DNA from: Paludibacteraceae bacterium
GTDB taxonomy: Bacteria; Bacteroidota; Bacteroidia; Bacteroidales; Paludibacteraceae
Assembly (NCBI GenBank): GCA_017451525.1
Contig: JAFTOD010000003.1
Coordinates: 1-64,000 of the forward strand
Reading direction: 5' to 3'
DNA length: 64,000 nt
The notes beneath the pieces are model-generated. The model had not been told where the DNA came from, ran no database searches, and saw nothing but the letters and a program-made list of their open reading frames with translations. Positions 2,214-38,769 of this stretch are shown one piece after another. Within the stretch, counting starts at the first letter, position 1. The number at the start of each line of letters is the position of its first letter. Position numbers and translations under genes: made by a program.

Positions 2214-2930
2214 ATGAAAAAGATATTTTTTATCCTTGCATTTGGCTTTTGGCTCTTTGCTCCAATGGCAATGGCGCAGGTGCAGCCAGGCGATACGCAG
2301 TATGCCGTGTCGCTGCACGTTGGGTATGGGCACAACCTGACATACGGGTCGTATGCGAACTTTGACATCGATGCCTATCTACCTATTAACCAGCATTTTG
2401 ATATGCAAGCCAGTGTCCGAACCAGTACCGCCAACTTCTACACGGCGGGGGTGCAACTCAGACCAAAATTCGTATTGCCCGTGGGCGAACTATACCTCGA
2501 AGACCGACTGATGATGAGATGGGTCAACAGAGATAGCTTCCGCGATTTTGTACACGCTTTCTCGGTGGGATACAAGATGCAATATGTGAATGTGCAAGTG
2601 GGTATGAGCAATCGTATCATCACGCCATTGCCATACACCAATCGCAGCGAAGATGAGATGATTCTCGAACCATTTGATGCCGTGTATCGCGTGGAAGCGT
2701 TTGTGCGACCACAGACATCGCCATGGAATATCAGCTTGTGTCTCTCGAATATGGACAACTACCAAGTGGAGCGGATGTGGCAACCGATGTTCTACCTCGG
2801 CGGTTGGTACGATATCAACGAGCATTGGCGCGTACGCCTATCAGGCAAAATGAAACTGGCGGGAATGTTCCACCTCAATGCGCACTACTATGGCGCAGAA
2901 CTGCGTGCGGGTGCGGAATACCGATTTTAA
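2214..2930 (+). CDS. Conserved outer-membrane beta-barrel protein
   Basis: 238 residues beginning with a signal peptide ending at AMA-QVQPG. The mature part alternates short amphipathic strands and ends in a C-terminal phenylalanine (AGAEYRF), as expected for an outer-membrane barrel. Repeated aromatic/glycine strands (VSLHVGYGHNL, AFSVGYKMQYVNVQVGMS, YYGAELRAGAEYRF) support this; no enzyme motif is visible. The family is a Bacteroidales conserved hypothetical of unknown function. It is first in a unit with the phosphoesterase, folK and the pseudouridine synthase, each closely spaced. The signal-peptide codons 2241-2261 are three near-identical 7-base units (TTTGGCT type). An outer-membrane porin or adhesin role is possible but not shown. 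Confidence 0.8.
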   Translation: MKKIFFILAFGFWLFAPMAMAQVQPGDTQYAVSLHVGYGHNLTYGSYANFDIDAYLPINQHFDMQASVRTSTANFYTAGVQLRPKFVLPVGELYLEDRLMMRWVNRDSFRDFVHAFSVGYKMQYVNVQVGMSNRIITPLPYTNRSEDEMILEPFDAVYRVEAFVRPQTSPWNISLCLSNMDNYQVERMWQPMFYLGGWYDINEHWRVRLSGKMKLAGMFHLNAHYYGAELRAGAEYRF

Positions 2931-2963
2931 TTAAGAATTTTGAATTACGAATTTTGAATTATG
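2931..2963 (+). repeat. 7-base-period array at the phosphoesterase start codon
   Basis: Four units of TTNNGAA type (TTAAGAA, TTTTGAA and so on) fill the whole gap between the barrel stop codon and the ATG at 2961, which falls in the fifth, partial unit. Comparable arrays precede 6767, 7370, 14337 and 34987. Confidence 0.75.
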
Positions 2964-3869
2964 AAAAAGAATATACAAATTTGTCTTGGCTCCTTGTTCC
3001 TTGTTCTTGGTTCCATCTTCACCGCTTGCGGACCAGAGGCACGATTGGATATGGTGGGTATGTTTGCTGGTACTTCACCAAAGATTGATGAACGATTTGA
3101 GGAATCCAAAGTATATAATGACCAGCATGGTTTCATCACGCTGCAAGCCCCAGTGGATGACTATCGCGTGTATGTGTGTACCGACACCCATGTGACCAAA
3201 ACACAAACGCGTTGGACATACTTCATTGATACCTATCGCCATGACCCGCTGTGTCCTGTAGCTGTGCATTTGGGCGATATCATCGATGCGCAAAACTATT
3301 TCGATGAGATGTACTCGGCATATCAGGCAGTGCCGCTCAATCCCGCGAAAAAGGATACACTGATGGCGGTAGCAGGCAACCACGATATTTATTTCAAACA
3401 GTGGCCAGAGTATATCAAGTATTTCAAGACGTGCTACTACTACTTCATCGTAGAGACTCCTTCGGGAAAGAAGGACCTGTTCGTGGTCTATGATTCGGCA
3501 GACGGCACGGTGGGCAGCAAACAGTTGCAATGGCTTCGTGAGACATTGGAGTGGGCAGATAAGCAGGATTTTCGCCATATCGTAGCATGTACGCATACGC
3601 ATTTCTTCAAACGTGATGGCTCGCAAGGACATACCTCCAACTATACGCAAGAAGAGACCTATGCGCTGCTCAACTTGTTTGAAAAGCATGGGGTAGATAT
3701 GGTATGGTCGGGACACGACCACTCGCGCGAAATCACCCAAGTGAAGGATATGACTTGTATCGTGGTGGACTCGATGAAAGATGAGGACAAGAAACCCTTC
3801 TACATGCTCGTGACCATGGGCGAGAAGATTGATTATGAGTTTGTCTCGGTAGCTGATATCCAAAAATAG
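2961..3869 (+). CDS. Calcineurin-like metallophosphoesterase lipoprotein
   Basis: 302 residues. A lipoprotein signal ends in the lipobox FTAC-G (Cys22 region), so the protein is probably anchored to a membrane facing the periplasm or surface. The metallophosphoesterase fold is shown by the ordered metal-binding motifs: DTH (CTDTHVTKT), GD-x-D (HLGDIIDAQ), GNHD (VAGNHDIY), H (ACTHTHFF) and GHDH (WSGHDHSREI). All core metal ligands are therefore present; the substrate (nucleotide, phospholipid head group or phosphodiester) cannot be told from sequence. The signal-peptide codons 2985-3019 form a 7-base array (CCTTGTT twice in tandem). The stop overlaps the GTG start of folK by one base. Confidence 0.85.
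   Translation: MKKNIQICLGSLFLVLGSIFTACGPEARLDMVGMFAGTSPKIDERFEESKVYNDQHGFITLQAPVDDYRVYVCTDTHVTKTQTRWTYFIDTYRHDPLCPVAVHLGDIIDAQNYFDEMYSAYQAVPLNPAKKDTLMAVAGNHDIYFKQWPEYIKYFKTCYYYFIVETPSGKKDLFVVYDSADGTVGSKQLQWLRETLEWADKQDFRHIVACTHTHFFKRDGSQGHTSNYTQEETYALLNLFEKHGVDMVWSGHDHSREITQVKDMTCIVVDSMKDEDKKPFYMLVTMGEKIDYEFVSVADIQK
2985..3019 (+). repeat. 7-base-period array encoding part of a signal peptide
   Basis: Five 7-base units around CCTTGTT (two identical in tandem, flanked by CTTGGCT, CTTGGTT and CCATCTT) encode residues LGSLFLVLGSIF of the lipoprotein signal. Confidence 0.6.
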
Positions 3870-4294
3870 TGCTTATCTACTTTGGCATAGGAACCAATCT
3901 GGGCAATCGCGAGGCAAATCTGCAAACGGCACTGCAACTGCTGGATGAACGAGTAGGGGAGCAATTGGCGTGCTCGTCGGTGTACAGGAGTGCGCCACAG
4001 GGCTTTGTTTCGGACAATGAGTTTGCAAATATTGTGGCAGTATATGAAACAGAGTATTCGCCCGAAGAAGTGCTACTTCTCACTCAGCAGATTGAGCGCG
4101 ACATGGGACGCACACGAAAATCGGTGAATGGCGTGTATCATGACCGAGTAATTGATATTGACCTGCTGCAAGCAATCCTAAATTCAAAAGCAATAATTCA
4201 AAATTCATCAACCCTCACTCTGCCACATCCTCGTATGCAAGAGCGTGACTTTGTGATGATTCCTCTCCGCGAGGTAGAAGCATTATTACACTAA
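3869..4294 (+). CDS. folK: 2-amino-4-hydroxy-6-hydroxymethyldihydropteridine diphosphokinase (HPPK)
   Basis: 141 residues. HPPK transfers pyrophosphate from ATP to 6-hydroxymethyl-dihydropterin in folate biosynthesis. Family motifs in order: GTNLGNREANL near the N-terminus, SSVYRSAPQG, the DRVIDIDLL metal/ATP motif, and LPHPRMQERDFVMIPLREV at the C-terminus. The best start is the GTG at 3869, inside the preceding stop (TAGTG), giving translational coupling. Between DIDLL and LPHPR, where the family normally has a short YGD-type loop, the gene carries a 7-base-period array (4179-4213) that includes a 16-base exact match to the intergenic array before iorB; this looks like an in-frame repeat insertion in a tolerant loop. 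Confidence 0.9.
   Translation: MLIYFGIGTNLGNREANLQTALQLLDERVGEQLACSSVYRSAPQGFVSDNEFANIVAVYETEYSPEEVLLLTQQIERDMGRTRKSVNGVYHDRVIDIDLLQAILNSKAIIQNSSTLTLPHPRMQERDFVMIPLREVEALLH
4179..4213 (+). repeat. 7-base-period array inside folK
   Basis: Five units of the AWAATTC/AAAATTC type. The 16-mer ATAATTCAAAATTCAT at 4193-4208 also occurs at 6728-6743 in the iorA-iorB gap. Confidence 0.7.
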
Positions 4295-4295
4295 T

Positions 4296-4991
4296 ATGCA
4301 GGTATTATACGAAGACAACCATATAATAGCCGTCAGCAAGACTTGCCACGAGATTGTGCAAGGCGACAAGACGGGTGATACCCCCCTGTCGGATATCGTA
4401 AAGGCGTATATCAAAGAAAAATATCAGAAGCCAGGCGAAGTGTTTCTTGGGGTTACGCATCGTTTAGACCGTCCTACCACGGGCGTGGTGCTGTTTGCAC
4501 GTACCAGCAAAGCATTGAAGCGACTCAATGCTATGTTTCAATCGCACGAGCAGATACAGAAGACCTATTGGGCGATTGTGGAGAAGAATGAAAGGCTATT
4601 AGGCGATAAGGCTAATGAGGTAATGAGGCTTGAGAACTACCTTTGGCGTAACGAGAAGCAAAATAAGTCGTTTGTAGTCAAGCCAGGAACCAAAGATGCC
4701 AAACGCGCTGTGCTAACTTATAAGGTGATAGCCAAGAGTGAGCGGTATATGCTGTTGGAAATCAATCTGGAAACAGGTCGCCATCATCAGATTCGTTGTC
4801 AGTTGGCAGCGATAGGTTTGCCTATCAAAGGTGACTTGAAATATGGTGCCAAGCGTAGTAATCCCGATGGAGGTATATCGCTACACGCTCGTAAGATAGA
4901 GTTTATTCATCCTGTGAGCAAACTGCCTATCTCAATCACTGCTCCCGTGCCCGATGATGCTCTCTGGCATGTTTTAGAGCAACAGATATAA
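4296..4991 (+). CDS. RluA-family pseudouridine synthase
   Basis: 231 residues, starting two bases after the folK stop. RluA-type enzymes isomerise specific uridines of rRNA or tRNA. The catalytic aspartate is in HRLDRPTTGVVLFA (about residue 55); the second conserved block LETGRHHQIRCQLAAIG and the C-terminal GGISLHARKIEF follow. There is no N-terminal S4 domain, so it belongs to the short RluA/RluC-like group and the exact rRNA position is not predictable. Residues RLLGDKANEVMRLE are encoded by a weak 7-base-period stretch (4593-4634), longer than expected at this point of the fold. Last gene of the 2214 unit. Confidence 0.85.
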   Translation: MQVLYEDNHIIAVSKTCHEIVQGDKTGDTPLSDIVKAYIKEKYQKPGEVFLGVTHRLDRPTTGVVLFARTSKALKRLNAMFQSHEQIQKTYWAIVEKNERLLGDKANEVMRLENYLWRNEKQNKSFVVKPGTKDAKRAVLTYKVIAKSERYMLLEINLETGRHHQIRCQLAAIGLPIKGDLKYGAKRSNPDGGISLHARKIEFIHPVSKLPISITAPVPDDALWHVLEQQI

Positions 4992-5030
4992 ATGTTTTAC
5001 AACATAAATGCCTGAAAATTGCACTATGTA

Positions 5031-5062
5031 TTTGCATAGGTGCGATTTTTTTTGTAACTTTG
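5031..5062 (+). promoter_or_regulatory. Promoter of the iorA operon
   Basis: TTTG (5031-5034), 20-base spacer, TAACTTTG (5055-5062). The spacer has CATAGGTGCGATTTTTTTTG, related to the GTATGTGC-T6 spacers at 2144, 54004 and 63264. Confidence 0.8.
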
Positions 5063-5087
5063 CACACCTAAAAAATGCAATAATACC

Positions 5088-6731
5088 ATGAAACACCTAT
5101 TATTAGGCGATGAAGCCATAGCGCAAGGCGCTATTGATGCTGGATTGAGTGGCGTGTATGCTTATCCAGGCACGCCATCTACTGAGATTACTGAGTATAT
5201 ACAATTGAGCGAAAAGCGCAAAGGCGATGAGGCGAAAGACAAGATTTTTTGCCAATGGGCTACCAACGAGAAGACCGCTATGGAAGGCGCACTCGGTATG
5301 TCCTATATGGGCAAGCGCGCGCTTGTGTGCATGAAACATGTGGGCATGAATGTCTGCGCGGATGCGTTTATGAATGCTGCTATCACGGGCGTGAACGGCG
5401 GATTGGTGGTAGTGGCAGCGGATGACCCATCGATGCACTCCTCGCAAAACGAACAAGACTCGCGTTTCTATGCGAAATTCGCCATGATCCCATGCCTCGA
5501 ACCAAGCAACCAACAAGAGGCATACGACATGATGCACTATGCCTTCGACCTCTCCGAATCATTGCGCACACCTATCTTACTGCGCGTGACTACGCGCATG
5601 GCGCACTCGCGTGCGGTGGTCGAGACAATGGACACTCCTCGTGAGCAAAATGCCTTGTCTGCGCCTGAAAATACCAATCATTTTATTCTTTTGCCAGCTT
5701 TCGCACGCAAAAACTATGCGGAATTGGTAGAAGCGCAATCTGATTTCGTGCAAACGAGTGAGGAGTCGCAATACAACCAATATACCAAAGGCAGTAATCC
5801 GAAGAAAGCCATTGTAACGACTGGTATTGCGTATAACTACCTTATGGAGGCTATAGGCGAAGCATCCAATACCCATTATCCATTAGCCAATAGCGAAGCG
5901 TCCATCCTTAAGATTACCCAATACCCATTGCCTAAGGCATTGATCGATCAGATGGTAGCCGATGGTGCAGAGGAGATTCTTGTTATGGAGGAGGGACAAC
6001 CCATAGTGGAAGAACTATTGCGCGGTATGGTGCCATCTTCTGTGGCTGTCAATGGCCGACTGACGGGCGACCTCCCTCGCATGGGCGAACTCACACCCGA
6101 CAGTGTCGCCCTCGCCTTATCGCCTCATAGCGAAGCGTCCAATAGCCCATTGCCTATACCCGAACTAGTCGTTGGTCGTCCACCTGCACTGTGCCAAGGT
6201 TGTGGTCACCGCGATATGTATGCTGCGCTCAATGAGGTGGCTCGCGAACATGAGAATGCCAAGATTTTCGGCGATATAGGTTGTTACACCTTGGGTGCAT
6301 TGTCACCTTTCCATGCTATCCACGCTTGTGTGGAGATGGGTGCGAGTATCACTATGGCGAAAGGTGCTGCTGATGCAGGACAGTTCCCTTCGTTTGCGGT
6401 GATTGGCGATAGTACGTTTACGCATTCGGGCATGACGGGATTGCTAGACTGCGTGAATAGCAAGGCGAATGTGGTAGTGCTGATTTCCGATAACCTCACC
6501 ACAGGTATGACTGGCGGACAAGATTCTGCGGGTACTGGCAGACTGGAAGCTATCTGCGTGGGATTGGGCGTAGAGAAAGAGCATGTGCGCGTGGTAGTGC
6601 CATTGCCAAAGAATATGGAGGAGATCAAGCAAGTGCTCCGCGAGGAGGTGGCTTACAACGGCACCAGTGTTGTCATCGCCCGCCGTGAGTGTATCCAAAC
6701 CCTCAAACGCCACCTCAAAGCAAAAAAATAA
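5088..6731 (+). CDS. iorA: Indolepyruvate ferredoxin oxidoreductase, alpha subunit
   Basis: 547 residues. With IorB it couples aryl-pyruvate decarboxylation to aryl-acetyl-CoA with ferredoxin reduction; in anaerobic gut Bacteroidales the reverse reaction can supply aromatic amino acids from aryl-acetates. Visible parts: N-terminal pyrimidine-binding domain (YAYPGTPSTEITEY near residue 25), a central linker, and the C-terminal thiamine-diphosphate domain with CQGCGHRDMY, GDIGCYTLGALSPFH and GDSTFTHSGMTGLLD. The protein ends at RRECIQTLKRHLKAKK, so the C-terminal double 4Fe-4S ferredoxin domain of the archaeal enzyme is absent. The linker holds two 7-base-period inserts (5852-5906 and 6121-6162) encoding SEAS-containing loops. 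Confidence 0.92.
   Translation: MKHLLLGDEAIAQGAIDAGLSGVYAYPGTPSTEITEYIQLSEKRKGDEAKDKIFCQWATNEKTAMEGALGMSYMGKRALVCMKHVGMNVCADAFMNAAITGVNGGLVVVAADDPSMHSSQNEQDSRFYAKFAMIPCLEPSNQQEAYDMMHYAFDLSESLRTPILLRVTTRMAHSRAVVETMDTPREQNALSAPENTNHFILLPAFARKNYAELVEAQSDFVQTSEESQYNQYTKGSNPKKAIVTTGIAYNYLMEAIGEASNTHYPLANSEASILKITQYPLPKALIDQMVADGAEEILVMEEGQPIVEELLRGMVPSSVAVNGRLTGDLPRMGELTPDSVALALSPHSEASNSPLPIPELVVGRPPALCQGCGHRDMYAALNEVAREHENAKIFGDIGCYTLGALSPFHAIHACVEMGASITMAKGAADAGQFPSFAVIGDSTFTHSGMTGLLDCVNSKANVVVLISDNLTTGMTGGQDSAGTGRLEAICVGLGVEKEHVRVVVPLPKNMEEIKQVLREEVAYNGTSVVIARRECIQTLKRHLKAKK
5852..5906 (+). repeat. 7-base-period array inside iorA (first)
   Basis: Units of CCAATAC/CCATTAT/CCATTAG/CCAATAG type in exact 7-base register, then CGAAGCG. 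It encodes the loop between SNTHYPL and NSEAS; a shorter piece follows at 5917-5937. Confidence 0.7.
6121..6162 (+). repeat. 7-base-period array inside iorA (second)
   Basis: The core TAGCGAAGCGTCCAATAGCC at 6128-6147 shares TAGCGAAGCGTCCA with the first iorA array and with the ALDH gene (58781-58800, reverse). It encodes SPHSEASNSPLPIP, a low-complexity loop between two enzyme domains. Confidence 0.65.
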
Positions 6732-6762
6732 TTCAAAATTCATAATTCAAAATTCATAATTA
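6728..6762 (+). repeat. 7-base-period array before iorB
   Basis: Five 7-base units alternating ATAATTC and AAAATTC fill the iorA-iorB gap and end five bases before the iorB ATG. Confidence 0.8.
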
Positions 6763-6766
6763 ACTT

Positions 6767-7345
6767 ATGAAACGCGATATAATTTTAGCAGGCGTAGGCG
6801 GACAAGGTATCCTATCTATTGCCACAGTGATTGGCGAGGCAGCCCTTAAGGAGGGCCTCTATTTGAAGCAAGCCGAAGTGCATGGTATGAGCCAGCGAGG
6901 CGGTGATGTGCAATCCAATCTCCGTTTATCCAGCGAACCCATCTATTCGGATTTGATTCCAAAGGGTGGGGCAGATATCATCATCTCGCTCGAACCAATG
7001 GAAGCATTGCGCTATTTGCCATACCTCAAACCCGATGGATGGATTGTCTCCTCGTGCAAACCTTTTGTGAATATCCCTAATTATCCTGATATTGAGCAGG
7101 TACTGGAGCACATTAAAGCAGTCAAGAACCACGTGCTATTAGATGTAGAGGTGCTTGCCAAAGAGGCGGGTGCTCCTTTGCAAGCAGCGAATATGGTGCT
7201 CTTGGGTGCAGCTATCCCTATGTTGGGCATTGACCATGATAAGATTGTTGCAGGCGTGGAGCGCATCTTCGCCCGCAAAGGCGAAGCCGTTGTAGCTGCT
7301 AACCTTGCTGCCATCGAAGCTGGCTTCCGTGCCTCTCGCCTTTAA
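6767..7345 (+). CDS. iorB: Indolepyruvate ferredoxin oxidoreductase, beta subunit
   Basis: 192 residues, the gamma-type (2-oxoacid oxidoreductase family) partner of IorA. Motifs: the N-terminal GVGGQGILSIATVIGEAA block, AEVHGMSQRGGDVQSNLR, and LEPMEALRYLPYL, all typical of IorB. ATG at 6767 is the first in-frame start after the iorA stop. The gap to iorA is only a repeat array, and the stop codon lies in another 7-base array (7332-7366) that continues to the aminotransferase start, so the three genes are probably one transcript. Confidence 0.92.
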   Translation: MKRDIILAGVGGQGILSIATVIGEAALKEGLYLKQAEVHGMSQRGGDVQSNLRLSSEPIYSDLIPKGGADIIISLEPMEALRYLPYLKPDGWIVSSCKPFVNIPNYPDIEQVLEHIKAVKNHVLLDVEVLAKEAGAPLQAANMVLLGAAIPMLGIDHDKIVAGVERIFARKGEAVVAANLAAIEAGFRASRL

Positions 7346-7366
7346 CCTTTCACCTCTAACCTCATA
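7332..7366 (+). repeat. 7-base-period array spanning the iorB stop codon
   Basis: Five units of CCTYTNN type (CCTCTCG, CCTTTAA, CCTTTCA, CCTCTAA, CCTCATA). The second unit contains the iorB stop TAA; the array ends three bases before the aminotransferase ATG. Confidence 0.75.
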
Positions 7367-7369
7367 AAT

Positions 7370-8701
7370 ATGAGCTTTCCATTAAACAAACAACTCGTTG
7401 ACCAAACCTGTATTGATTTTGGTTTGCGTAACGCCAAAGAACTTGGTGCATCGTCTATCCGCCAACTCGTGGGCGTAGTCAAAGATATCGAACGTGCTAC
7501 TGGTCAGGAGTTTATCCACATGGAATTGGGCGAACCTGGCTTGCCAGCCGAACAAGTGGGCATAGCTGCTGAGCATGCAGCCCTAAAAGCGGGTTACGGT
7601 TCGCGTTATCCTATTATCACGGGTATCCCCGAAGTCAAGCACTGGGGCAGTGAGTTCGTGCGCGCTTTCCTTGGACTGGATATCCCTACCGATTGCATTG
7701 TGCCTACAGTGGGCAGTATGCAAGCCGCTTTTGCGCTTAATATGACGATGGCTCAACTGGATAGCCAGCGTGATACGGTCCTCTTTCTTGACCCCTGTTT
7801 CCCTGTGCAGAAACAGCAATGCAAGGTGATTGGTGTGCGTGTGGATGCGTTTGATGTGGCGAATTTCCGTGGCGAAGCATTGGAGAAAGAGTTGGAACGC
7901 CATTTTCAATCGGGTAGGATAGCCGCCATGCTCTTCTCCAATCCGAATAACCCATCGTGGATGTGCCTCACCGAACGCGAATTGGAGATTATTGGTCGAT
8001 TGGCTACGTTGTATAATGTGCTGGTAATCGAAGACTTAGCATACCTAAATATGGACTTCCGCGATAAAGACCGTGGCACACCCTATGAACCGCCATACCA
8101 ACCCACCGTGGGCAGATATACCAACAATTGTGTGCATATGATTTCGTGCTCCAAGATGTTCTCGTATGCAGGCCAGCGCGGTGCTATTGTGGCGATGAAT
8201 CCGTATTTGGCACACCGTCGCTTCCCTTCATTGGCAGAACGTTATGGCAACGATGGCGAGTTCATACGTAATTTTGTGTATATTGTGCTCTATAGTCTGT
8301 CTTCGGGTGTGACGCACTCGGTGCAACATGCTATGGCTGCTATGTTCAAAGCGGCTTGTCAAGGCAAGATTGACTTCGTGAACAATACCCGCGAGTATGC
8401 TCGCCGTGCGAAGATTGTCAAGGAGATAATGTTAAAGAACGGTTTCCATATTGTCTATGACCAAGATGCCGATGAGCAGGAGGTAGGCGATGGTTTCTTC
8501 TTTACGTTTGGTTATAAGGATTGGACGGGCGAAAAGATGCTTAACAAGCTGATTTACTATGGTATCTCGGCTATCTCTCTGAGTAGTACAGGTGCGAAAC
8601 GAGAGGGTATGCGTGGCTGTGTGTCTTGCATCCGCGACGACCAATACGACCTCCTCGATGAGCGCCTTGCGCTCTTCCATCGCGACTATTATGATAAATG
8701 A
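7370..8701 (+). CDS. Pyridoxal-phosphate aminotransferase, class I/II (probably aromatic)
   Basis: 443 residues of the fold-type I aminotransferase family. Visible motifs: MELGEPGLPAEQ near the N-terminus, SNPNNPSW (substrate/PLP-binding asparagine), IEDLAYLNMDF, and SCSKMFSYAGQRGAIV carrying the PLP-binding lysine. Its position directly after iorAB suggests that it interconverts aromatic amino acids with the aryl-pyruvates used or made by IorAB; this is inference from context. A strong hairpin terminator follows at 8721. Confidence 0.88.
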   Translation: MSFPLNKQLVDQTCIDFGLRNAKELGASSIRQLVGVVKDIERATGQEFIHMELGEPGLPAEQVGIAAEHAALKAGYGSRYPIITGIPEVKHWGSEFVRAFLGLDIPTDCIVPTVGSMQAAFALNMTMAQLDSQRDTVLFLDPCFPVQKQQCKVIGVRVDAFDVANFRGEALEKELERHFQSGRIAAMLFSNPNNPSWMCLTERELEIIGRLATLYNVLVIEDLAYLNMDFRDKDRGTPYEPPYQPTVGRYTNNCVHMISCSKMFSYAGQRGAIVAMNPYLAHRRFPSLAERYGNDGEFIRNFVYIVLYSLSSGVTHSVQHAMAAMFKAACQGKIDFVNNTREYARRAKIVKEIMLKNGFHIVYDQDADEQEVGDGFFFTFGYKDWTGEKMLNKLIYYGISAISLSSTGAKREGMRGCVSCIRDDQYDLLDERLALFHRDYYDK

Positions 8702-8720
8702 TTATTACTATTTTTTAAAC

Positions 8721-8762
8721 AAAATCGCCATTTGTGTTTCATGCACAGATGGCGATTTGTTT
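8721..8762 (+). terminator. Terminator after the iorAB-aminotransferase operon
   Basis: A near-perfect 13-bp stem ATCGCCATTTGTG/CACAGATGGCGAT with loop TTTCATG, then TTGTTT. The same hairpin occurs at 28876-28913 after pdxA, at the head of the second copy of the composite repeat. Confidence 0.8.
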
Positions 8763-8788
8763 ATCACTTATGATTTATAGTTTTCAAC

Positions 8789-9140
8789 AAGCACTTTTGT
8801 TAAGATTCTTTTCCTTTATACCTTAATATATATGCTCCGTGCTAAAGACCAAGGATGAACCAAGGACGAACCAAGGATGAACCAAAGAACTCCCAAACGT
8901 AAAAAAGTACTTTTATTAAGATTGCCATCTCTTTTCCCTTTCTTATACCTTGCCCTATTTTACCGAGAGAAGACCGACCGACGACCGAGAGAAGACCGAC
9001 AGAACTCCGCCTCAACTCCCTGCCTCCCCAAAAGCACTTTTCTTAAGATTGATAACCTAAAAAAGTTGACTACTGTCCTGAAAAGGTTGACTAAACTCTT
9101 AAAATTGTTTACTCCATTCCTAAAAGGGTCGTACTATTAA
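8789..9140 (+). repeat. Composite intergenic repeat, copy 1
   Basis: A 19-base motif AAGYACTTTTNTTAAGATT occurs three times (8789, 8905, 9032). The gaps hold arrays with an 11-base period: four units of AACCAAGGATG type at 8847-8890, and six units starting ACCGAGAGAAG at 8962-9027, which degrade toward the end. At 9057-9140 follow four imperfect 21-base units. Copy 2 lies at 28905-29150 with the same order. No coding potential is convincing. Confidence 0.75.
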
Positions 9141-9181
9141 CTCGGCCTCCAAACAAAAAATCACTTAAAAAGCGATTTTTC

Positions 9182-9212
9182 TTGCACAATCCAAAACATT
9201 TCACTATCTTTG
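9182..9212 (+). promoter_or_regulatory. Promoter of structured RNA copy B
   Basis: TTGC (9182-9185), 19-base spacer, TATCTTTG (9205-9212), followed by the same CACCCG start as copy A. Confidence 0.75.
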
Positions 9213-9217
9213 CACCC

Positions 9218-9514
9218 GCAATTCCACGCCGGGGATGTCTGCACGTCATCGGCTGGGGTAGCAGACATATTTAAAAGGCGTTTATTAGCGCTCTGTTCTG
9301 ACCCTTAGAAATCTCGCAAATTTCAAGAATAATCAGGACTTAGCAACGATAGATGTCCTCGGGATGTGTATATCCTATGCGCTCGTACCTTAATGGTTGT
9401 GTGCGTGTGCGTACATATCGGCGTGGGCTTCGCGTTGTCGGTTCTATTATTCTGGGCAATGCGAGAGCCTCTAAGGGTGGAACGACAACAGTCGGACTCC
9501 ACGCTTTTTATTTT
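9218..9514 (+). ncRNA. Structured non-coding RNA, copy B (about 295 nt)
   Basis: Homologue of 1447-1778 in the opposite orientation. CCACGCC at the 5' side can pair with GGCGTGG at 9420-9426; GGATGTGTA can pair with TACATATC using one G-U pair where copy A has A-U. The middle third (about 9275-9340) is unrelated to copy A, while the flanking blocks are nearly identical. An open reading frame enters from 9353, but it is not conserved in copy A and the sequence conservation follows the RNA, not codons. It ends in a hairpin with a T-rich tail at 9476-9514. Confidence 0.65.
9476..9514 (+). terminator. Terminator of structured RNA copy B
   Basis: GTGGA-a-CGAC-aaca-GTCG-gac-TCCAC stem-loop followed by GCTTTTTATTTT. 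The AACA loop is shared with copy A although the stems differ, a covariation signal. Confidence 0.7.
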
Positions 9515-9922
9515 ATGCCTATACTTGACCTAATAATTAGCATAGTTGGGAGTTCCTATGCAAAAAAACTTATCAAAAAAATGACAAATTTTGATTCTTA
9601 TGTAAAAAATGTTTTGAGTACATTAAAGGTATGTGGCGTTCCCGTTATGGCAATGCGAGGCGTATGCGATGATGACAATCTATTTCCTGGTGCAGACCTA
9701 AATGGGAGTGCTTATATTTCTATAGCAGATGGCTATACAAGTGCGTTAGGACACGGAGATATGTGCATTTTCAAGGGGAATAATGGTGAAGCAAAGGGTG
9801 TTTTACTTGTCAATGTTTCTGCTCAGTTTCTCAACATTATTAGAGGTAATGGAATGCTCTATGGCGCAAGATACAAGAGTATTAAAAATACATTTTCCAA
9901 TGAATATGTAGTTTATTTCTAA
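9515..9922 (+). CDS. Hypothetical protein (island gene 1)
   Basis: I do not recognise this protein. The frame is open from 9353, but the first 162 bases belong to the structured RNA, so the ATG at 9515 (135 residues, MPILDLIISIVG) or the ATG at 9581 (MTNFDSYV) is the likelier start. The N-terminal 20 residues are hydrophobic with lysines after them, then a soluble part with a glycine-rich stretch (FPGADLNGSAYISIADG) and a C-terminal NEYVVYF. The ATG at 9515 falls just after the RNA terminator T-tract, so expression may depend on read-through. First of a run of small unknown genes on the same strand. Confidence 0.55.
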   Translation: MPILDLIISIVGSSYAKKLIKKMTNFDSYVKNVLSTLKVCGVPVMAMRGVCDDDNLFPGADLNGSAYISIADGYTSALGHGDMCIFKGNNGEAKGVLLVNVSAQFLNIIRGNGMLYGARYKSIKNTFSNEYVVYF

Positions 9923-9965
9923 GAAAATAATCCTCATACTACAAAATAATAAACTTCATAGTATT

Positions 9966-12538: not shown

Positions 12539-12542
12539 ATTT

Positions 12543-13739: not shown

Positions 13740-14060
13740 TACTTTCGGCACAATCTTCGGCACGAAGAAAAAAAATAACAAAAAATCGCCCAAGCGGGAG
13801 GCGTTGGTAATCAACACCTTCCGCTTACTTTAAGCATCTTTTTATAGCAACATTTACAAATCTTCGGCACAAAACCGCCACAATGCCGAAAATACGGCAT
13901 TACTATAATATATAGAGGCATAAACATTTGACACACAATCGCTACAGATAAGGCACAACTAGGCGATAGATGTGCCACAGTGCTCGCGAAGTGGTCGCGT
14001 AGCCTGTAGCCAACTGGAGAGCAACCTAAAAGCCACCGAAAGCCCATAGATATCCCACAG
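13740..14060 (+). repeat. Hairpin-rich intergenic repeat, copy 1
   Basis: Homologous to 29395-29770. It begins with CACAATCTTCGGCAC, then a hairpin around AAGCGGGAGG...CCTTCCGCTT, then ATCTTCGGCA...TGCCGAAAAT, then a conserved block with ACAACTAGGC, AGATGTGC, TCGCGAAGTGGTC and AGCCACCGAAAGCCCA. The stems differ in sequence from copy 2 but keep pairing, suggesting selection at RNA or hairpin level. It is not coding. Confidence 0.7.
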
Positions 14061-14073
14061 ATCTCCTCATTTA

Positions 14074-14154
14074 GTTCTATGCTTGCGCTGATTCCTCAAA
14101 GTGGGGACTTTTCGGGCGCTGCACTCGGAGTGCGTTCCGTCGCACTCCTTCACC
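14074..14154 (+). repeat. About 80-base repeat with GGAGTGCG hairpin, copy 1
   Basis: Nearly identical to 53795-53875: TTCTATG, then TTGCGCT, then GTGGGGACTTTTCGGGCGC, then a perfect GGAGTGCG-ttccgt-CGCACTCC hairpin and TTCAC. Confidence 0.75.
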
Positions 14155-14261
14155 CGAAATATGTAGGCAACTTTCGGTACGTGAAAACGTTTCTGATTAC
14201 TAATGCCGCCATTTGAAACACACTCAATATAAACTCTTTGCGTATATTTAGCAGAAAAGAT

Positions 14262-14300: not shown

Positions 14301-14335
14301 ACTCATCACTTGTCACTCATAACTCATCACTATAC
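14301..14335 (+). repeat. 7-base-period array in the 5' leader of the CoA-transferase
   Basis: Five units of ACTCATC/ACTTGTC/ACTCATA type occupy almost the whole leader and end one base before the ATG at 14337. Confidence 0.85.
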
Positions 14336-21939: not shown

Positions 21940-23481
21940 TTAACTAAGCTTCTCCAAAGCGGTGCGGACGCGGCGGAGTGTCTCCTCTTTGCCCAAAACG
22001 TCGGTGATGTTCCAAATATGTGGACCACGAGCAGCACCTACCAAGCAGATACGGAAGGCATTCATCACAATACCTACGCCATACTCTTTCTCGGCAATCC
22101 ATGGCATAATCAGGTTGTCCAAGCCCTCAGCAGACCAATCCTCGTGTGCCTCCAGCAAGGCAAGCATCTCGGTCATATGCTTTGGAGAGTCCTCTTTCCA
22201 GCGTTTCTTAAGCGACTTCTCATCGTACTCGGTAGGAGCCACGAAGAAGAAGTTGACTTGCTCCCAGAGTTCGGAAACGAAGTTCACGCGGTCCTTCGTT
22301 AAGCCAATCACTTTCGACACTGTCTCAAGTGATGGTTTAGTGTTTAGTGTTGAGAGTTTAGTGTCTAGGAGAGGCATAAACTGCTCAGCGAGTTCTTCGT
22401 TGGAGCGGAGTTGGAGGTATTGGTGGTTGAACCATTTGCCTTTCTCGTAGTCGAACTTAGCACCTGACTTGCTTACGCGCTCAAGCGAGAACTGATCAAT
22501 CAACTCCTGCATAGTGTACATTTCTTGGTCGCCTGTAGCATGCCAGCCAAGAAGAGCCAAGAAGTTGATCACTGCCTCTGGATAGTAGCCCTCCTCGCGG
22601 TAACCCGATGATACAGAGCCATCTTTTTGGTTGTGGAACTCGAGTGGGAAAACAGGGAAACCGAGACGGTCGCCATCGCGTTTGGAGAGTTTACCATTGC
22701 CGTCAGGCTTGAGAAGCAAAGGCAAGTGTGCAAACTCAGGCATGGTATCTTCCCAACCAAATGCCTGGTAGAGCAGCACGTGGAGTGGGGCAGAAGGCAA
22801 CCATTCTTCGCCACGGATAACATGGCTAATCTCCATCAAATGGTCATCCACGATATTGGCGAGGTGGTAGGTTGGCAGATCGTCAGCAGATTTGTAGAGC
22901 ACCTTGTCATCGAGGATATTGGAGTTGATAACCACTTCGCCACGGATAAGGTCGTGCACATGTACATCGATATTTGGCTCCACTTTGAAGCGCACGACAT
23001 ACTTCTCGCCTGCAGCGATACGAGCATCTACCTCCTCCTTGCTGAGTGTCAGCGAGTTCACCATCTGCTCGCGCGTGCGAGCATCGTATTGGAAATTGGC
23101 AATCTCAGCGCGCTTGGCTTCCAATTGCTCCGGAGTATCGAATGCGATATAGGCATTACCCGAAGCGAGGAGCTGATCTACATACTTGTGGTAGATATCA
23201 CGGCGCTCGCTTTGGCGGTATGGACCATGATCGCCCTTGCCGTTAGGCGCATCTTGGCAGATACCTTCGTCAATCTCGATGCCGAGCCATGCGAGGGACT
23301 CGGTGATATATTCTTCGGCTCCAGGGACGAAGCGTGTGGAGTCGGTGTCTTCAATACGAAGCAACATGTCGCCACCGTGTTGGCGAGCGAAAAGGTAGTT
23401 AAACAAGGCAGTACGCACACCGCCGATATGCAACGCACCTGTTGGACTAGGTGCAAAACGAACACGAACTTTTCTTTCCAT
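21940..23481 (-). CDS. gltX: Glutamyl-tRNA synthetase
   Basis: 513 residues, class I synthetase charging tRNA-Glu. The HIGH motif is in [26 protein letters not shown], the KMSKS equivalent is KLSKRDGD, and FEDTDxxR-type conservation is seen as IEDTDSTR. In the anticodon-binding part, [17 protein letters not shown] is encoded by a 7-base-period array (22334-22368), a probable in-frame repeat insertion in a loop. The gene follows the CotH-type frame by three bases on the same strand, so transcription from 26552 may continue into it; I saw no separate promoter. Confidence 0.95.
22334..22368 (-). repeat. 7-base-period array inside gltX
   Basis: Five units of ACTAAAC/CTCAACA type on the coding strand (GGTTTAG, TGTTTAG, TGTTGAG, AGTTTAG, TGTCTAG on the forward strand). 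Confidence 0.75.
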
Positions 23482-23484: not shown

Positions 23485-25368
23485 TTATTGTATCAATTTT
23501 ATTTCAGTTTTTCCATTATCTCGTATGATATACATTCCTGATTGCAATTGTGGCATTTCTTTGCCACTATATATCATTCTTCCCATGATGTCCCATATGG
23601 CTATTGCCGATTGGCTATAGGTGATTGGGGATTGAATGTCAGTCGGGATATATGTGTAGCCCAATCGCTTATCCATCCATTCAACACGTTTGGTGATATA
23701 TTCTTTGAGGTACTCAACCTCTGCTGCAAAACTACCACGAGCCACTGGATTCATGTGCTCTTGTCGGTTGAGGATATCCCAACGCATAAACGTGAGTGTT
23801 TGCGAGCGGTCAATCTCTGTGGCTATACTGTCTATCCATGCGCATAGGCTAGTAGCATCAATGCCATTGTGGCGAGCTTCACCCCATATCTCACGAAGTT
23901 CTGGAATAGTTTGAGCATCTTGCAATACTATACGGCGCACAAATTGCCCCATACTACCAGCCACTGAACCGCCATCAAAGCATACAAACTCTGTCTTGTT
24001 ATTCAGCGGATAGGTGCGATAGTCGTTGTCAAAAGCGATATCAAAATCCCATACGGGGCCCGTGTAAGCTTTCTTTTCTCCGCGCTTTTTATATTGATAT
24101 ACGCTCCAATAGGTGTCGGTGTTGCCTGACAATTCGCCAATCAAGAAGTGACGCAAAAATGTCTCTGCATCCAATATTGATCGCCAGCCATAGTCTTTGT
24201 TATCAAAATACGAAGCATATACTGTCGCTTCCATCTCATCGAAGAAATTCTTTAAATATGTTGATTGCTCAGGCTTGATATCATCTTCATCAGGTGACTT
24301 AATTGTCACAGGGATATTATTTTTGGATGTGAACCAACTTTTTTCTTGATTAGCATAGGCGTCAATCTCCCATAAGTAGCCACCCGTTAGTGCTTCGCCA
24401 GATATATCAGAAGTTTCCATCTCATCGATATTTACACGGTTTTTGTTGACCTCTATTTGGTCACATAGTTGGTAACAACCTTTGTATTCACCGTTGAGTA
24501 TCACATCCACAGATCTTCCATAAGGAGTGTATGGCATACCCATTACTTCACTAATATGGAATGCCAGCAAGTTACGCATCAATGTTTTATCACCATAATT
24601 GCTGATGAGTGTCCATTTTTTGGCTTTGGCAGGTGCGTCCAATGGCTTTTGCTTGCTTTCGAACTTAATGCGATAAGGCTTTTTAGCAAAGTTCAGTGAA
24701 GCATTGCCACGTAGGCGTGTTGTAGCTGTATCCATCACGTAGGTGTTGTCGGTGTCGATGATACGCACATAACTGGGGATATTGTGTTCCTTATCGTATG
24801 GCTCCTCAGCATTTACAGTGTTCATTATCACTACTGGTATTCCGCTTGGCAAATAAAACTCGCTTTCATCGCCTTCGCCCGCATGACCATAGAACGCTAG
24901 TTCGGCAATATTGCATCGTTTGTCATGAGGACCTACATAGCGCACATAGCGAAAACCTTTGCTTACCATAATATCTGCATAGTGCATCTCGCCTATCACT
25001 CCCTTCTGGTCTATCAAATAGAGTGGCACTGCGTCCAGAAAGTCGCTTCGGTTAGCACCTTCTATCATACCCAACACTACGCGTTCTGGTCCTACTCCGT
25101 CGTTGCGAGGTGACCAACCCACGCGAGTAATCACGTGGGGCGATCCCAAATCCAAACCAACCCATGTGTAGGAGCGGTCGAAAGAAGCATAATAGGTGTT
25201 GAGATCGCCATCGAAAGCATTGGCAGGTTGATTGACGGTGGTGCTGATAGAACCATTACTATAATCTACAGCAGGCGAACCCATAGGGGTGCCCTGCAAT
25301 AAGGAATCACTTGCCCATAAGGTGGTGCTAAAGATGATAGCAGTTAGCGTAAGCAAATGTTTTTTCAT
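23485..25368 (-). other. CotH-type protein as a possible separate product (internal start)
   Basis: ATG 25368 begins a self-sufficient 627-residue secreted protein: signal peptide, discoidin-like beta domain, CotH domain (atypical protein kinase fold; in spores it phosphorylates coat proteins), and a C-terminal domain of type IX secretion type A form (WDIMGRMIYSGKE, then LQSGMYIIRDNGKTEIKLIQ). The linker before this tail is encoded by the 7-base array 23596-23637. No TAnnTTTG box was seen directly upstream of 25368, so it would be translated from the permease mRNA. Confidence 0.7.
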
Positions 25369-28837: not shown

Positions 28838-28875
28838 TACCAAATTTCTATTCGAACGCTCTCCCCAACAGATAT

Positions 28876-28913
28876 TCGCCATTTGTGTTTCATGCACAAG
28901 TGGCGTTTTTTTT
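28876..28913 (+). terminator. Terminator after pdxA
   Basis: CGCCATTTGTG-tttcatg-CACAAGTGGCG stem followed by T8; same loop as at 8721-8762, with compensatory changes in the stem. Confidence 0.88.
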
Positions 28914-29150
28914 AAGATTTCCTTCCCATTATACCTTATATATACACTCCGTGCTAAAAACCAAGGATGAACCAAAGACGAACCTAGGATGAACCTACCA
29001 ACTCTCAAACTCAAAAAAGTACTTTTATTAAGATTGACTTTCTCTTTACCTCTCTTATACCTTTCCTTATTCCACCGACCGACAACCGAGAGAACACCGA
29101 CAGAACTCCGACTCAACTCCTTGCCTACAAAAAGTGCTTTTTGTTAAGAT
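28905..29150 (+). repeat. Composite intergenic repeat, copy 2
   Basis: Same order as 8789-9140: a degenerate TTTTAAGATT after the terminator, four 11-base units of AACCAAGGATG type (28959-29002), the 19-mer AAGTACTTTTATTAAGATT (29017), five 11-base units starting ACCGACCGACA (29074-29128), and a third motif copy at 29132. The second array has one unit fewer than copy 1, so copy number has changed by whole units. Confidence 0.75.
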
Positions 29151-29249
29151 CACCTAAAAAGGTTGTCCCCCTCCTAATACGCATTTCTCTCCCGCCTCTT
29201 GTTAAGCTCTCGCGGTTCCGTCCGTGAGAAAATCCCCGCCTCTAATCTA

Positions 29250-29394: not shown

Positions 29395-29770
29395 CTTCAC
29401 TTTCGACACAATCTTCGGCACAATCTTCGGCGCGCGAAAACTTTTTTTCAAAAAAAATATACTCACGCGGGAAGCATAGTAAATACTACACTTCCCGCGT
29501 GTTGTATATACCATCTTACCCTCCAAATTCTCCAATCTTCGGCGCAAAACCCCTTCCGCGCCGAAGATTTTTGCAGCATTATTATAGAGGCGCATCGAAA
29601 GTGGAAAGGTGAAAAGTGAAAACACAAAAGCCACCGCTGTGATACAACTAGGCAACAGATGTGCTACAGTGGTCGCGAAGTGGTCATGTAGCCCGCAGTC
29701 AACTTGAGAGTGATTTGATAGCCACCGAAAGCCCACAGATCTCCTATAGATGTGCTATGGTGGTCCCGAA
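29395..29770 (+). repeat. Hairpin-rich intergenic repeat, copy 2
   Basis: Perfect hairpins CACGCGGGAAG/CTTCCCGCGTG (29464-29501) and AATCTTCGGCGC/GCGCCGAAGATT (29534-29569), then a 7-base array of GAAAGTG type (29597-29631), then the block shared with 13740-14060 (ACAACTAGGCAACAGATGTGC and onward). An internal direct repeat AGATGTGCTAYRGTGGTC occurs at about 29658 and 29749. Confidence 0.72.
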
Positions 29771-33773: not shown

Positions 33774-33785
33774 ATAGTTATATAG

Positions 33786-34963: not shown

Positions 34964-34986
34964 ATGGCAATTCTTAATTCACGATT

Positions 34987-35457
34987 ATGAAAGTAACGCT
35001 TCTGGTAGTCGGAAAAACCACTGATGGGCATATTGACACATTGATACAGGAATATCAAAAGCGTCTAACTCATTACTTACCATTTACATTGCAGGTTATT
35101 CCCGAACTCAAAAATACGAAATCTCTTACGGCGGAACAGCAAAAGCAAGCAGAAGGTGAAATGATTATGCGTGCTATAACGCCATCTACAGATTTGATTC
35201 TGTTGGATGAACATGGCAAAGAATATCGGTCAATAGAGTTTGCTGATTATCTGCAAAAGCGTATGTCATCGGGTAGGGATGTGGTCTTTGTTGTGGGAGG
35301 ACCTTATGGCTTTGCAGATGCAGTATATCAGCGCGCCAATGGTAAGATTTCGCTTAGCAAGATGACATTTTCACATCAAATGGTTCGCCTTTTCTTTGTG
35401 GAGCAACTCTATCGAGCTATGACCATATTGCGTGGCGAGCCTTATCATCATGAATAA
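34987..35457 (+). CDS. rlmH: 23S rRNA (pseudouridine1915-N3)-methyltransferase
   Basis: 156 residues, the usual RlmH length. SPOUT fold features: LLDEHGKEYRSIEFADYL, the glycine-rich FVVGGPYGFADAVY and the C-terminal LSKMTFSHQMVRLFFVEQLYRA, ending in GEPYHHE. It methylates the pseudouridine in helix 69 of 23S rRNA using S-adenosylmethionine. Three 7-base units (GCAATTC, TTAATTC, ACGATTA) immediately precede and enter the start codon. Confidence 0.95.
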   Translation: MKVTLLVVGKTTDGHIDTLIQEYQKRLTHYLPFTLQVIPELKNTKSLTAEQQKQAEGEMIMRAITPSTDLILLDEHGKEYRSIEFADYLQKRMSSGRDVVFVVGGPYGFADAVYQRANGKISLSKMTFSHQMVRLFFVEQLYRAMTILRGEPYHHE

Positions 35458-35485
35458 AGATTAGTTATTTGATTTTTTAAGGTAT

Positions 35486-37216: not shown

Positions 37217-37225
37217 GCATATGTA

Positions 37226-37262
37226 TAAAAATGCGAGAGTTTTCATAACTCTCGCATTTTTT
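37226..37262. terminator. Bidirectional terminator of sulP and recN
   Basis: AAATGCGAGAGTT-ttcat-AACTCTCGCATTT stem with T-runs on both strands. The stem overlaps the last codons of recN (KMREL). Confidence 0.88.
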
Positions 37263-38769
37263 CAATCTCCGCCTCATGCTCTTGCGTATTGAGTTTGCGG
37301 ATATGTGTTTCTGTACGGATGTCAGTATCTTCTTTATACACCAAATAATGATGTTCGCAGCGAGCTGCTACTTGAGGTAAGTGGGTTATAGTGATAACTT
37401 GCCTTGATTGAGCCATCTGGCGCATAATCTCTCCCATTTGACTAGCAATAGCGCCACTGACACCTGTATCAATTTCGTCGAAGATTATCGTTGGTAGTCC
37501 ATTGTTGCTTGCAATAAGTGCTTTGATACATAGCATTAATCGACTAATTTCACCACCAGATGCCACTTCCGCGACACGGCGAAGCGACTGGTTCAGATTG
37601 GCAGCAAAGAGGAATTGTACATTGTCTTTTCCTGTCTCGGTAAAGTCGTTGTTGGGCTGAATATCCACTGCTACTTTGGCGTGCGGTACGCCTAAACGAA
37701 CCATATCTTCAATAAGGCGAGAGGCTATCAGGTTACAAGGTGCGAGACGAGATGCCGTAAGTGCTTCTGCTGCGATGGACAATGCGCTGTGTGCTGTATC
37801 CACCTCTGCTTGCAGACGTGCAAGATCATCGTCGATATTTTCAATCTGTTGAATTTGTACAGCGAGTTCATCGCGTAGGGCAATCAGTTCATCTATAGTC
37901 TGTACACGATGCTTCTTCATCAATGTTTGGAGCATACTGATGCGCTCTTGCACTTGCTCCAGACGCATTGGGTCACGTTCGGTGTGGTCGTAGAGACGTT
38001 GAATGTCGGATACAATATCTTTGAGTTCTATCTCTACACTATTTAAGCGTTCGGATAGTTGACAGTTGACAGTCGATAGCTGACATGCATGTATGAGCAT
38101 TATTGCGCTATTGCCTTCGCCGTCCAGTTGTTGTAGGGCAGTGGCGAGCGCGGTTTGTATCTCTTCGGCATGTGCAAGTCGGTATTCTTCTTCTTCTAAT
38201 TCTTCCAATTCGCCAGCAATCAGTTGTGCTTCAACGAGTTGGGTGTATTGCCATTGTAGATAATCGGCATCAGTTTGCGCCTTTTTAGCAAGGGCTTGTG
38301 CCTCGCGTAGAGCAGCTATTGCTTCTTGGTAGGAGATATAGGCATGGCTATATGCTTCGCGCTCGGCTGTATTTCCTGCGATAGCATCTACTACTTGTAT
38401 TTGGAAGAGATCGTCGCCAATCATTAGGCTCTCGTGCTGTGAGTGGATGTCTATGAGTTGACGCGCGAGGGCTTTGAGCTCTGCTTGAGTAACTATTTCA
38501 TCATTCACAAACGACCGTGAACGTCCGTTGGCACTTAATTCACGACGGATAATGAGATCTTCGCCAAAAGTGGCTTCTATCACGCATCGTTCTTCACCTT
38601 CTGTGATGCTTTTGATATCAGCACGTGCACCCATCACAAGGTTGAGTGCACCGAGAATGATACTCTTACCAGCACCCGTCTCACCTGTCATGACAGAGAA
38701 CCCCTCATGGAAATCAATATCCAAGTGAGATATTAACGCATAGTTACGTATGTGAAGATGAGTAAGCAT
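37243..38769 (-). CDS. recN: DNA repair protein RecN
   Basis: 508 residues. SMC-like ATPase for double-strand break repair: Walker A GETGAGKSIILGALNLVMG near the N-terminus, long coiled coil in the middle (LAKKAQTDADYLQWQYTQLVEAQ), ABC signature ASGGEISRLMLCI, and Walker B IIFDEIDTGVSG. Start ATG 38769 is used because the promoter at 38789 lies in the upstream extension. The coiled-coil region carries a 7-base-period array (38054-38088) encoding STVNCQLSE. Confidence 0.94.
   Translation of the reverse strand: MLTHLHIRNYALISHLDIDFHEGFSVMTGETGAGKSIILGALNLVMGARADIKSITEGEERCVIEATFGEDLIIRRELSANGRSRSFVNDEIVTQAELKALARQLIDIHSQHESLMIGDDLFQIQVVDAIAGNTAEREAYSHAYISYQEAIAALREAQALAKKAQTDADYLQWQYTQLVEAQLIAGELEELEEEEYRLAHAEEIQTALATALQQLDGEGNSAIMLIHACQLSTVNCQLSERLNSVEIELKDIVSDIQRLYDHTERDPMRLEQVQERISMLQTLMKKHRVQTIDELIALRDELAVQIQQIENIDDDLARLQAEVDTAHSALSIAAEALTASRLAPCNLIASRLIEDMVRLGVPHAKVAVDIQPNNDFTETGKDNVQFLFAANLNQSLRRVAEVASGGEISRLMLCIKALIASNNGLPTIIFDEIDTGVSGAIASQMGEIMRQMAQSRQVITITHLPQVAARCEHHYLVYKEDTDIRTETHIRKLNTQEHEAEIEKMREL
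38054..38088 (-). repeat. 7-base-period array inside recN
   Basis: Five units on the forward strand: GATAGTT, GACAGTT, GACAGTC, GATAGCT, GACATGC. Confidence 0.8.

Follow-up and report, generated by a model that had tools for sequence, protein, structure and literature searches.

The window analysed here comprises the first 64,000 nucleotides (64 kb) of contig C2 (JAFTOD010000003.1) of a 1.84 Mb, 84% complete metagenome-assembled genome (MAG) of a Paludibacteraceae bacterium (GenBank assembly GCA_017451525.1). The nearest named records to this host are Paludibacteraceae MAGs from the gut of roe deer, sheep and water buffalo. The window holds short, imperfect tandem arrays, chiefly with periods of 7 and 11 bases. 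Such arrays occur in large excess over chance and are strong in most sampled members of the host genus. Moreover, the same sites are occupied repeatedly by unrelated units, and the units come from a vocabulary that is reused across the clade. The reading to which we give a probability of roughly one half (0.5) is that slippage-type arrays arise and vanish at sites that tolerate them, the words being drawn from a clade-wide pool. Below, G-numbers denote other genomes of the genus and L-numbers denote loci; all genomes are MAGs, with one genome per species, and unit groups were judged partly by eye.

Local excess of heptamer and 11-mer arrays

An earlier note on this DNA listed 16 heptamer arrays in the window. 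At each of these positions the matches at lag 7 were counted afresh, where chance gives about 26% per position, and the arrays were checked with Tandem Repeats Finder (TRF). Twelve of the 16 are reported by TRF with period 7 or 14, and matches are strong at 2241 (12/14), 2931 (19/26), 2985 (19/28), 5852 (26/48), 6728 (23/28), 7332 (20/28), 14301 (19/28), 22334 (22/28), 23596 (21/35), 29597 (20/28) and 38054 (19/28). Those at 4179 (15/28), 6121 (15/35) and 34967 (8/14) are individually weak. Two entries fell away as heptamers: the array at 4593 is an 8-mer, and the stretch at 58781–58840, with 15/53 lag-7 matches (near chance), is by eye a chain of word-plus-palindrome modules. A stricter catalogue, with a score of at least 11, retains nine period-7/14 arrays in the window; the score cut-offs favour arrays of at least 3–4 units.

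The array signal is local only. At least 19/28 matches are reached by 11 runs at lag 7 and by 10 at lag 11, compared with 0.1 and 0.17 in 30 local first-order simulations, and window-wide autocorrelation is flat (z of 1.3 at lag 7 and 1.1 at lag 11). Autocorrelation had been proposed in the earlier note as a check, with the absence of an excess at lag 7 to count against the arrays. Run on the window it shows nothing at lag 7, and the local excess is nonetheless large, so that objection does not arise. In 430 kb of the host genome, 31 period-7 and 39 period-11 arrays were observed (0 and 1, and 0 and 0, in two simulations), together with 7 of period 8 (2; 0), 11 of period 9 (14; 0) and 8 of period 10 (0; 1). 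A larger sample of 830 kb (45% of the host genome) holds 63, 12, 19, 14 and 66 arrays of periods 7, 8, 9, 10 and 11, respectively, and 851 kb of G023 holds 96, 26, 21, 51 and 64 (4, 0, 0, 1 and 1 simulated). An account in heptamers alone, as first given, is thus incomplete, as it overlooked the excess at periods 11, 8 and 10. The commonest heptamer array has four units (38/75 in the host, 37/107 in G023), with shorter arrays disfavoured by the score cut-off.

The flat autocorrelation is what would be expected if the arrays were a product of chance, base composition or faulty assembly. We consider such an artefact highly improbable: chance is rejected by the runs in the window and by the simulation counts in 430 kb, and, as to assembly error, the arrays span 20–55 bases, which is less than the length of an ordinary read, and they also turn up in MAGs that were assembled separately.

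Turnover of units at fixed sites

A block comparison of the window with G021–G023, which took in all but positions 53000–62000, reveals different words at the same places. The FolK site at 4179 carries an AATTCAA type in the host, ACTCATC in G023 and CGGGAGT in G021. In IorA, the CCAATAG heptamer at 5852 is matched by a decamer array in G023, and the weak array at 6121 by a clear CCGGATG array; at 7332, CCTTTAA in the host stands against AATTCAT in G023. The units at 5852, 6121, 6728 and 7332 all differ between the two genomes, and fourfold-degenerate sites are 82% (IorA, n = 247) and 84% (IorB, n = 89) identical, so the units there evolve more rapidly than silent positions do.

Heptamer sites were mapped between the host and G023 in both directions. 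Of the 39 mappings, three have fewer than 20 bases left at the site, and 20 of the other 36 hold an array with a score of at least 9; the figure is 1.8% among 1464 control sites and 0.6% among shuffles. With reciprocal mappings merged, an array is kept at 10 of 29 heptamer sites, with the same word in five, a different word in four and another period in one. The idea that a genus-wide process yields imperfect heptamer arrays at tolerated places, akin to the heptamer repeats of other phyla, is supported. At flank identities of 95–99% between species, several arrays are nearly identical base for base, and the arrays at L207:17841 and L214:2520 are missing in the other species despite such identity.

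Two sites were followed through the genus, by searches of 61 genus genomes (the host included) taken from a larger group. The panel for the gap between IorA and IorB consists of 31 distinct genomes, namely 29 of 30 matched genomes plus G023 and G021; G007, a partial distant match, is left out, G022 repeats L256, and G022 and G036, which are one genome with identical contig coordinates, are counted once in the panels. An array (score of at least 8) fills the gap in 15 of them, 14 with period 7 and one with period 9. The genes overlap in 5 of the remaining 16, and the gap is array-less in 11. By eye, the units fall into at least seven groups, including AATTCAA, GAACCAA, AGTTTAA, TAATGGT, TTTATCC, AATTGAT and AAGTCGA.

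For the GltX loop, the panel consists of 32 distinct genomes (30 loci of 60 matched genomes, plus G023 and G021), of which 13 carry an array with a score of at least 9, seven of period 7 and six of period 8. Shuffles of ten array-bearing gaps reached a score of 9 in 29/5000 cases. Among the 19 array-less genomes, 13 have a loop of 8–9 residues, and this short form is presumably ancestral. The host array is shared with G069 (fourfold identity of 83%) with one internal change, and G023 (66%) has another unit, GTTGAGA, which is a minority unit in the host array and the one of which the G023 array is built. At L288 and L289, the array in the GltX coding sequence encloses an in-frame inverted repeat of about 35–40 bases.

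Replacement of one word by another at orthologous sites of sister species is often seen and is new here. The literature searched, which misses most subscription papers, yielded no description of units being exchanged at fixed sites and no co-mention of Paludibacteraceae with 'tandem repeat'.

A vocabulary shared across sites and species

Array pairs with the same dominant heptamer number 100 in the host and 85 in G023, compared with 5.0 (maximum 12) and 10.4 (maximum 26) for a null of G+C-matched genomic 7-mers; 97 and 84 pairs remain when those with homologous flanks are removed. Under a stricter null, in which columns are permuted within arrays, words are shared about 10 to 53 times as often as expected for periods 8, 10 and 11. 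Of the 30 commonest words, 19 occur in both the host and G023. Dominant-word sharing is 0.8–1.9% between near-clade genomes, comparable to the value within G023 (1.5%; the host itself has 3.5%), and 0.1–0.9% between either of these and more distant members, for which samples are small. Sister species thus draw on a common word pool at non-homologous sites. The suggestion that each array has a unit of its own does not hold, as dominant units recur at unrelated sites. Neither genome is confined to one or a few fixed words, though some words are favoured: 210 distinct necklaces occur in 75 host arrays and 243 in 107 G023 arrays, out of 1172. Self-complementarity of the words is the same as in the null.

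Purely local slippage would have each array grow from the sequence of its own site and then change by point mutation and further slippage, with shared words reflecting base composition and a mutational preference for strand-skewed words. Several observations are consistent with it: the array-less alleles at L224:11854 and L210:8786 contain a unit-like seed (by eye), the GltX word GTTGAGA is minor in one species and constitutes the array of another, and most heptamer sets lack long shared stretches. The words are also strand-skewed beyond matched genomic words, with values of 1.56 versus 1.23 in the host (level with the maximum of 200 nulls) and 1.74 versus 1.31 in G023. We nevertheless regard this explanation as doubtful. 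Dominant-word sharing is 8 to 20 times the G+C-matched null and is lineage-specific, and stepwise change could hardly turn a heptamer into a decamer at 5852, within a gene whose fourfold sites are 82% identical. The earlier proposal that units come from local sequence, taken alone, is not supported in view of the shared words and the cross-species pool, though some single sites, such as L224:11854, have the look of local seeding.

Placement relative to genes

Genes were called from open reading frames (ORFs) and hexamer statistics with a home-made procedure, which gives 84–86% coding sequence. Heptamer arrays lie within called genes in 33/75 cases in the host and 43/107 in G023, and the remainder are mostly in co-directional gaps. 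The 42/75 and 64/107 outside called genes, with contig-edge cases counted, compare with a non-coding share of about 15% of the sequence. The 11-mers form a separate, mostly intergenic class, with 70/76 host and 76/79 G023 arrays outside called genes; the next start lies at a median distance of 221 bases in the host and 145 in G023.

With gap lengths taken into account, 13 host arrays (12.3 expected) and 29 G023 arrays (21.7 expected) lie within 15 bases of the next start, an excess in the latter that is significant yet modest. Within 15 bases of the previous stop, the counts are 18 (12.2 expected) and 23 (21.8 expected). Five arrays of the window do end at or overlap an ATG, as a recount of coordinates confirmed, and across the genome proximity to start codons is read as largely the filling of short operon gaps. 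A dedicated start-codon element was rejected, as short gaps explain most of the proximity and only a modest excess remains in G023.

A role in translation initiation had been suggested. More generally, arrays before starts might act in cis by binding a protein or by preventing structure in the leader, a role suggested for TAACTGA repeats in Beggiatoaceae. The G023 excess near starts would fit such a role, as would the sense-strand C-richness of upstream decamer arrays (12/15 in the host, 27/37 in G023). We judge it distinctly unlikely, given the many arrays inside called genes, the lack of a start excess in the host and the variation of units wherever an array is present before IorB. Four folded start regions with arrays share no common behaviour (z of −1.86, 0.55, −1.98 and 1.91). 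Because arrays are missing at the IorB start in 16/31 genomes and in the GltX loop in 19/32, a required cis function at either site is unlikely, and the arrays need have no function at all.

Among the genes concerned, the identities of FolK/HPPK, IorA- and IorB-like, GltX, SMC/RecN-like and ALDH proteins are backed by Pfam. The array at 23596, described as lying in a CotH linker, sits in the tail after the CotH domain, and the one at 29597 falls between a PdxA gene and an AlaS-like gene. Preservation of the frame by sets of three units is not supported: among 19 heptamer sites called coding, 13 vary in length between the host and G023. The difference is divisible by 3 at 11 of the 13 sites and by 21 at one.

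Distribution in the genus and order

Heptamer arrays are patchy across the order and strong in most sampled members of the host genus, among which the favoured periods vary: 7 and 11 in the host, 8 and 16 in G002, 11, 22 and 8 in G011, and 11 and 10 in G009. No period-7 array occurs in G010 or G012, of which the samples are small (15 and 19 kb, respectively). Fifteen named loci that are genus-like, as judged from titles and identity, carry 15.3 period-7 arrays per 100 kb. The rate in 65 other named Bacteroidales loci (1.25 Mb) is 4.1 (0.08 simulated), concentrated in some loci, and the period-11 rates are 2.7 and 0.4 per 100 kb, respectively. In 337 kb from seven genomes that belong to other families of the order, there are two period-7 and three period-11 arrays in total. 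The 22.6 kb locus L134, from uncultured Prevotella RUG047, has 11 arrays of the 7/8/10/11 type, which marks the trait as patchy in other Bacteroidales. At L054:11032–11320 (G009) lies a decamer array of 289 bases in which TTCAAGATAG units yield to TAAACGATTC units with the register unchanged.

A proposed origin

In the reading that we favour, the genus would gain and lose short degenerate arrays (with a mode of four units of 7, and also of 8, 10 and 11 bases) at an unusually high rate. Birth could occur wherever an extra 20–50 bases are tolerated, that is, in operon gaps, at gene ends and in enzyme loops. It would start from a seed of about one unit, either pre-existing at the site, as seen by eye in array-less alleles such as L224:11854 and L210:8786, or copied from another array via microhomology, which slippage would grow to 3–6 units and which would later decay, contract or be overwritten. 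Selection on the frame and the protein would set which arrays survive, and function would be unnecessary. The 11-mers behave as families scattered between genes and probably had a distinct, though related, way of spreading. Slippage loops of 7–11 bases would escape MutS-type repair. Loss of mismatch repair was rejected as a cause, as MutS is over the cut-off in 21/21 genomes and MutL in 20/21, the one without MutL being a genus MAG of 92% completeness. The mini-hairpin GCGAAGC was likewise rejected as a driver: its counts on the two strands are 80 and 93 in the host (69 and 78 expected) and 84 and 87 in G023 (83 and 84 expected), where the expectation is a fifth-order Markov estimate that partly contains the signal.

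Several points weigh against this origin. At a score of at least 9, 19 of the 29 merged sites are array-less in the other species. Of 123 control sites with an indel between their flanks, 17.9% carry arrays, so places prone to indels are generally array-rich. Sharing of any heptamer word is only about twofold in excess under the stricter null (305 versus 163, maximum 199, in the host; 604 versus 316, maximum 391, in G023). Shared multi-unit heptamer stretches are no longer than after shuffling of unit order, so spread of heptamers from site to site by copying of multi-unit stretches is not borne out. The exception is host heptamers in stretches of at least 21 bases (9 versus a mean of 2.8, maximum 5). 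The preference for steps of 7 and 11 stays outside the account, and the evidence is between species.

A bolder form, which we hold only tentatively, is that the words constitute a protein-free, self-perpetuating pool. Arrays would seed tolerated sites with single words, which would be amplified to 3–6 units and mostly removed by selection. Words would then be inherited at the level of the pool amid turnover of sites, and the steps of 7 and 11 (also 8 and 10) would come from a copying device.

Dispersed 11-mer elements and mobility

Many 11-mers belong to dispersed families, and for host 11-mers copied stretches are seen (13 pairs of at least 33 bases, compared with a mean of 2.0). The TACGTANNATA 11-mer has 20 hits at 11 places in the 830 kb host sample and none in the 851 kb of G023. 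This amplification in the host alone, the location of 11-mer arrays in dispersed elements and the small palindromes that by eye adjoin some arrays (for example at L214:2520 and in the GltX loops of L288 and L289) would agree with the arrays being traces of a mobile cassette, such as a miniature inverted-repeat transposable element (MITE)-like or hairpin element with repeats at its ends. This reading is unlikely, as unrelated heptamer sites share words and mostly no longer stretches, and the array stands alone in many gaps and loops.

The elements at 8786–9525 and 28850–29160 are dispersed, non-coding and contain 11-mer arrays, with 12–18 hits each in 830 kb of the host and 9–11 hits at about 78–82% identity in 851 kb of G023; they have no Rfam match, and a search of the whole window against Rfam gave 0 matches at the gathering score. 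Short dispersed elements at 1778–1857 and 2112–2180 (17 and 14 host hits) have an inverted repeat adjoining TACCTTTGC, a sequence similar to a Bacteroidales promoter box. Another dispersed element, at 14020–14172 (18 hits in the host, 5 in G023), ends shortly before the acetyl-CoA hydrolase gene. At 58781–58840, L241:1751 and L249:898, the word TATTGGAC or GTTAGA alternates by eye with varied tiny palindromes, among them GCTTCGC, GGCGTTCCGCC and GGCTACGCC. The ORF at 2214–2930, which carries the first array of Table 1, has no Pfam match.

Table 1 Tandem arrays of the window with their position, strand and context
Feature	Position	Strand	Context and support
Period-7 array TTTGGCT	2241..2261	+	Near 5' end of ORF 2214–2930; 12/14 lag-7; TRF
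Period-7/14 array GAATTNN	2931..2963	+	Overlaps ATG at 2961; AGTTTAA-type units in G023; TRF
Period-7 array CCTTGTT	2985..3019	+	N-terminal part of Metallophos-domain gene; relatives keep unit type; TRF
Weak period-7 array, AATTCAA type	4179..4213	+	Within FolK/HPPK (Pfam); TRF
8-mer-type array AGGCGATA/TAATGAGG	4593..4634	+	Pseudouridine synthase gene; 12/35 lag-7; TRF 8-mer at 4613–4628
Period-7 array CCAATAG	5852..5906	+	IorA, between two Pfam domains; TRF
Weak array	6121..6162	+	IorA (Pfam); 15/35 lag-7
Period-7/14 array AATTCAA/AATTCAT	6728..6762	+	Fills IorA–IorB gap; TRF
Period-7 array, CCTTTAA type	7332..7366	+	Upstream of aminotransferase start at 7370; TRF
Two period-11 arrays ACCAAGGATGA; ACCGAGAGAAG	8848..9019	.	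In dispersed intergenic element; TRF
Period-7/14 array ACTCATC	14301..14335	+	Before acetyl-CoA hydrolase ATG at 14337; TRF
Period-7 array CTAAACA (coding strand)	22334..22368	-	GltX loop, residues about 371–382; TRF
Period-7/14 array	23596..23637	-	C-terminal tail beyond CotH domain; TRF
Second window copy of the 8848..9019 11-mer element	28959..29120	.	TRF
Period-7 array GAAAGTG	29597..29631	.	Between PdxA gene and AlaS-like gene; TRF
Weak three-unit array	34967..34987	+	Overlaps ATG of SPOUT methyltransferase gene; 8/14; absent from TRF list
Period-7 array GACAGTT	38054..38088	-	Inside SMC/RecN-like gene; TRF
Period-11 array TACGTANNATA	53613..53656	.	TRF
Period-11 array CCTATGAAGTC	59778..59837	.	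Present in host, absent at G023 site (138 vs 7 bases); TRF

Comparison with known heptamer repeats

In heterocystous cyanobacteria, and in the tRNA-Leu(UAA) intron, short tandemly repeated repetitive (STRR) heptamers are degenerate units in short tandem runs, and in the intron the variation consists of changes in unit number. The arrays of the host resemble them by description, as degenerate heptamers in short tandem runs. As with STRR sequences, period 7 is far above chance (31 versus 0–1 in 430 kb) and the arrays are scattered over the genome, most of them intergenic.

Direct repeats of TAACTGA occur in Beggiatoaceae, Cyanobacteria and five Bacteroidetes (MacGregor 2015, PMC4679880), and two sets are present in Paludibacter propionicigenes; their mobility is considered in that paper. 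The likeness lies in heptamer arrays mostly of 2–6 units, placed in gaps near starts and sometimes in ORFs (PMC4679880). The TAACTGA system, as described there, favours a single word, and variants of it that differ by one base seldom form repeats, whereas the host genus uses many words. TAACTGA itself appears in one host array and in none of G023, and is thus not the unit of these arrays.

Over-representation of heptamers in many bacterial genomes was found in 2007 (as related in PMC4692102), and dispersed GGGNATC heptamer arrays are known from Xanthomonas and Nostoc (Rehm 2015, PMC4692102). The GGGNATC repeats are dispersed and prefer four units (PMC4692102), which is also the mode in the host genus. 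A point of difference is that, between the host and G023, an array persists at 10/29 heptamer sites, with a change of unit or period in about half of the 10. GGGAATC is found in only two host and three G023 arrays, and the arrays in general do not follow the G-rich GGGNATC consensus.

In the available text of both papers the origin of heptamer repeats is left unsettled (PMC4679880, PMC4692102). With at least 61 genus genomes and different words at the same gap or loop, that origin becomes testable, in the rate of gain and the source of the words; the genus also lets one test what fixes the step at 7 or 11, be it a polymerase, a repair enzyme or the geometry of DNA. The arrays further advise caution in taking repeats before start codons for regulatory motifs. 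Relative to the known heptamer repeats, what is new in the host genus is the multitude of words, the several step sizes, the many intragenic sites and the swapping of units at fixed places.

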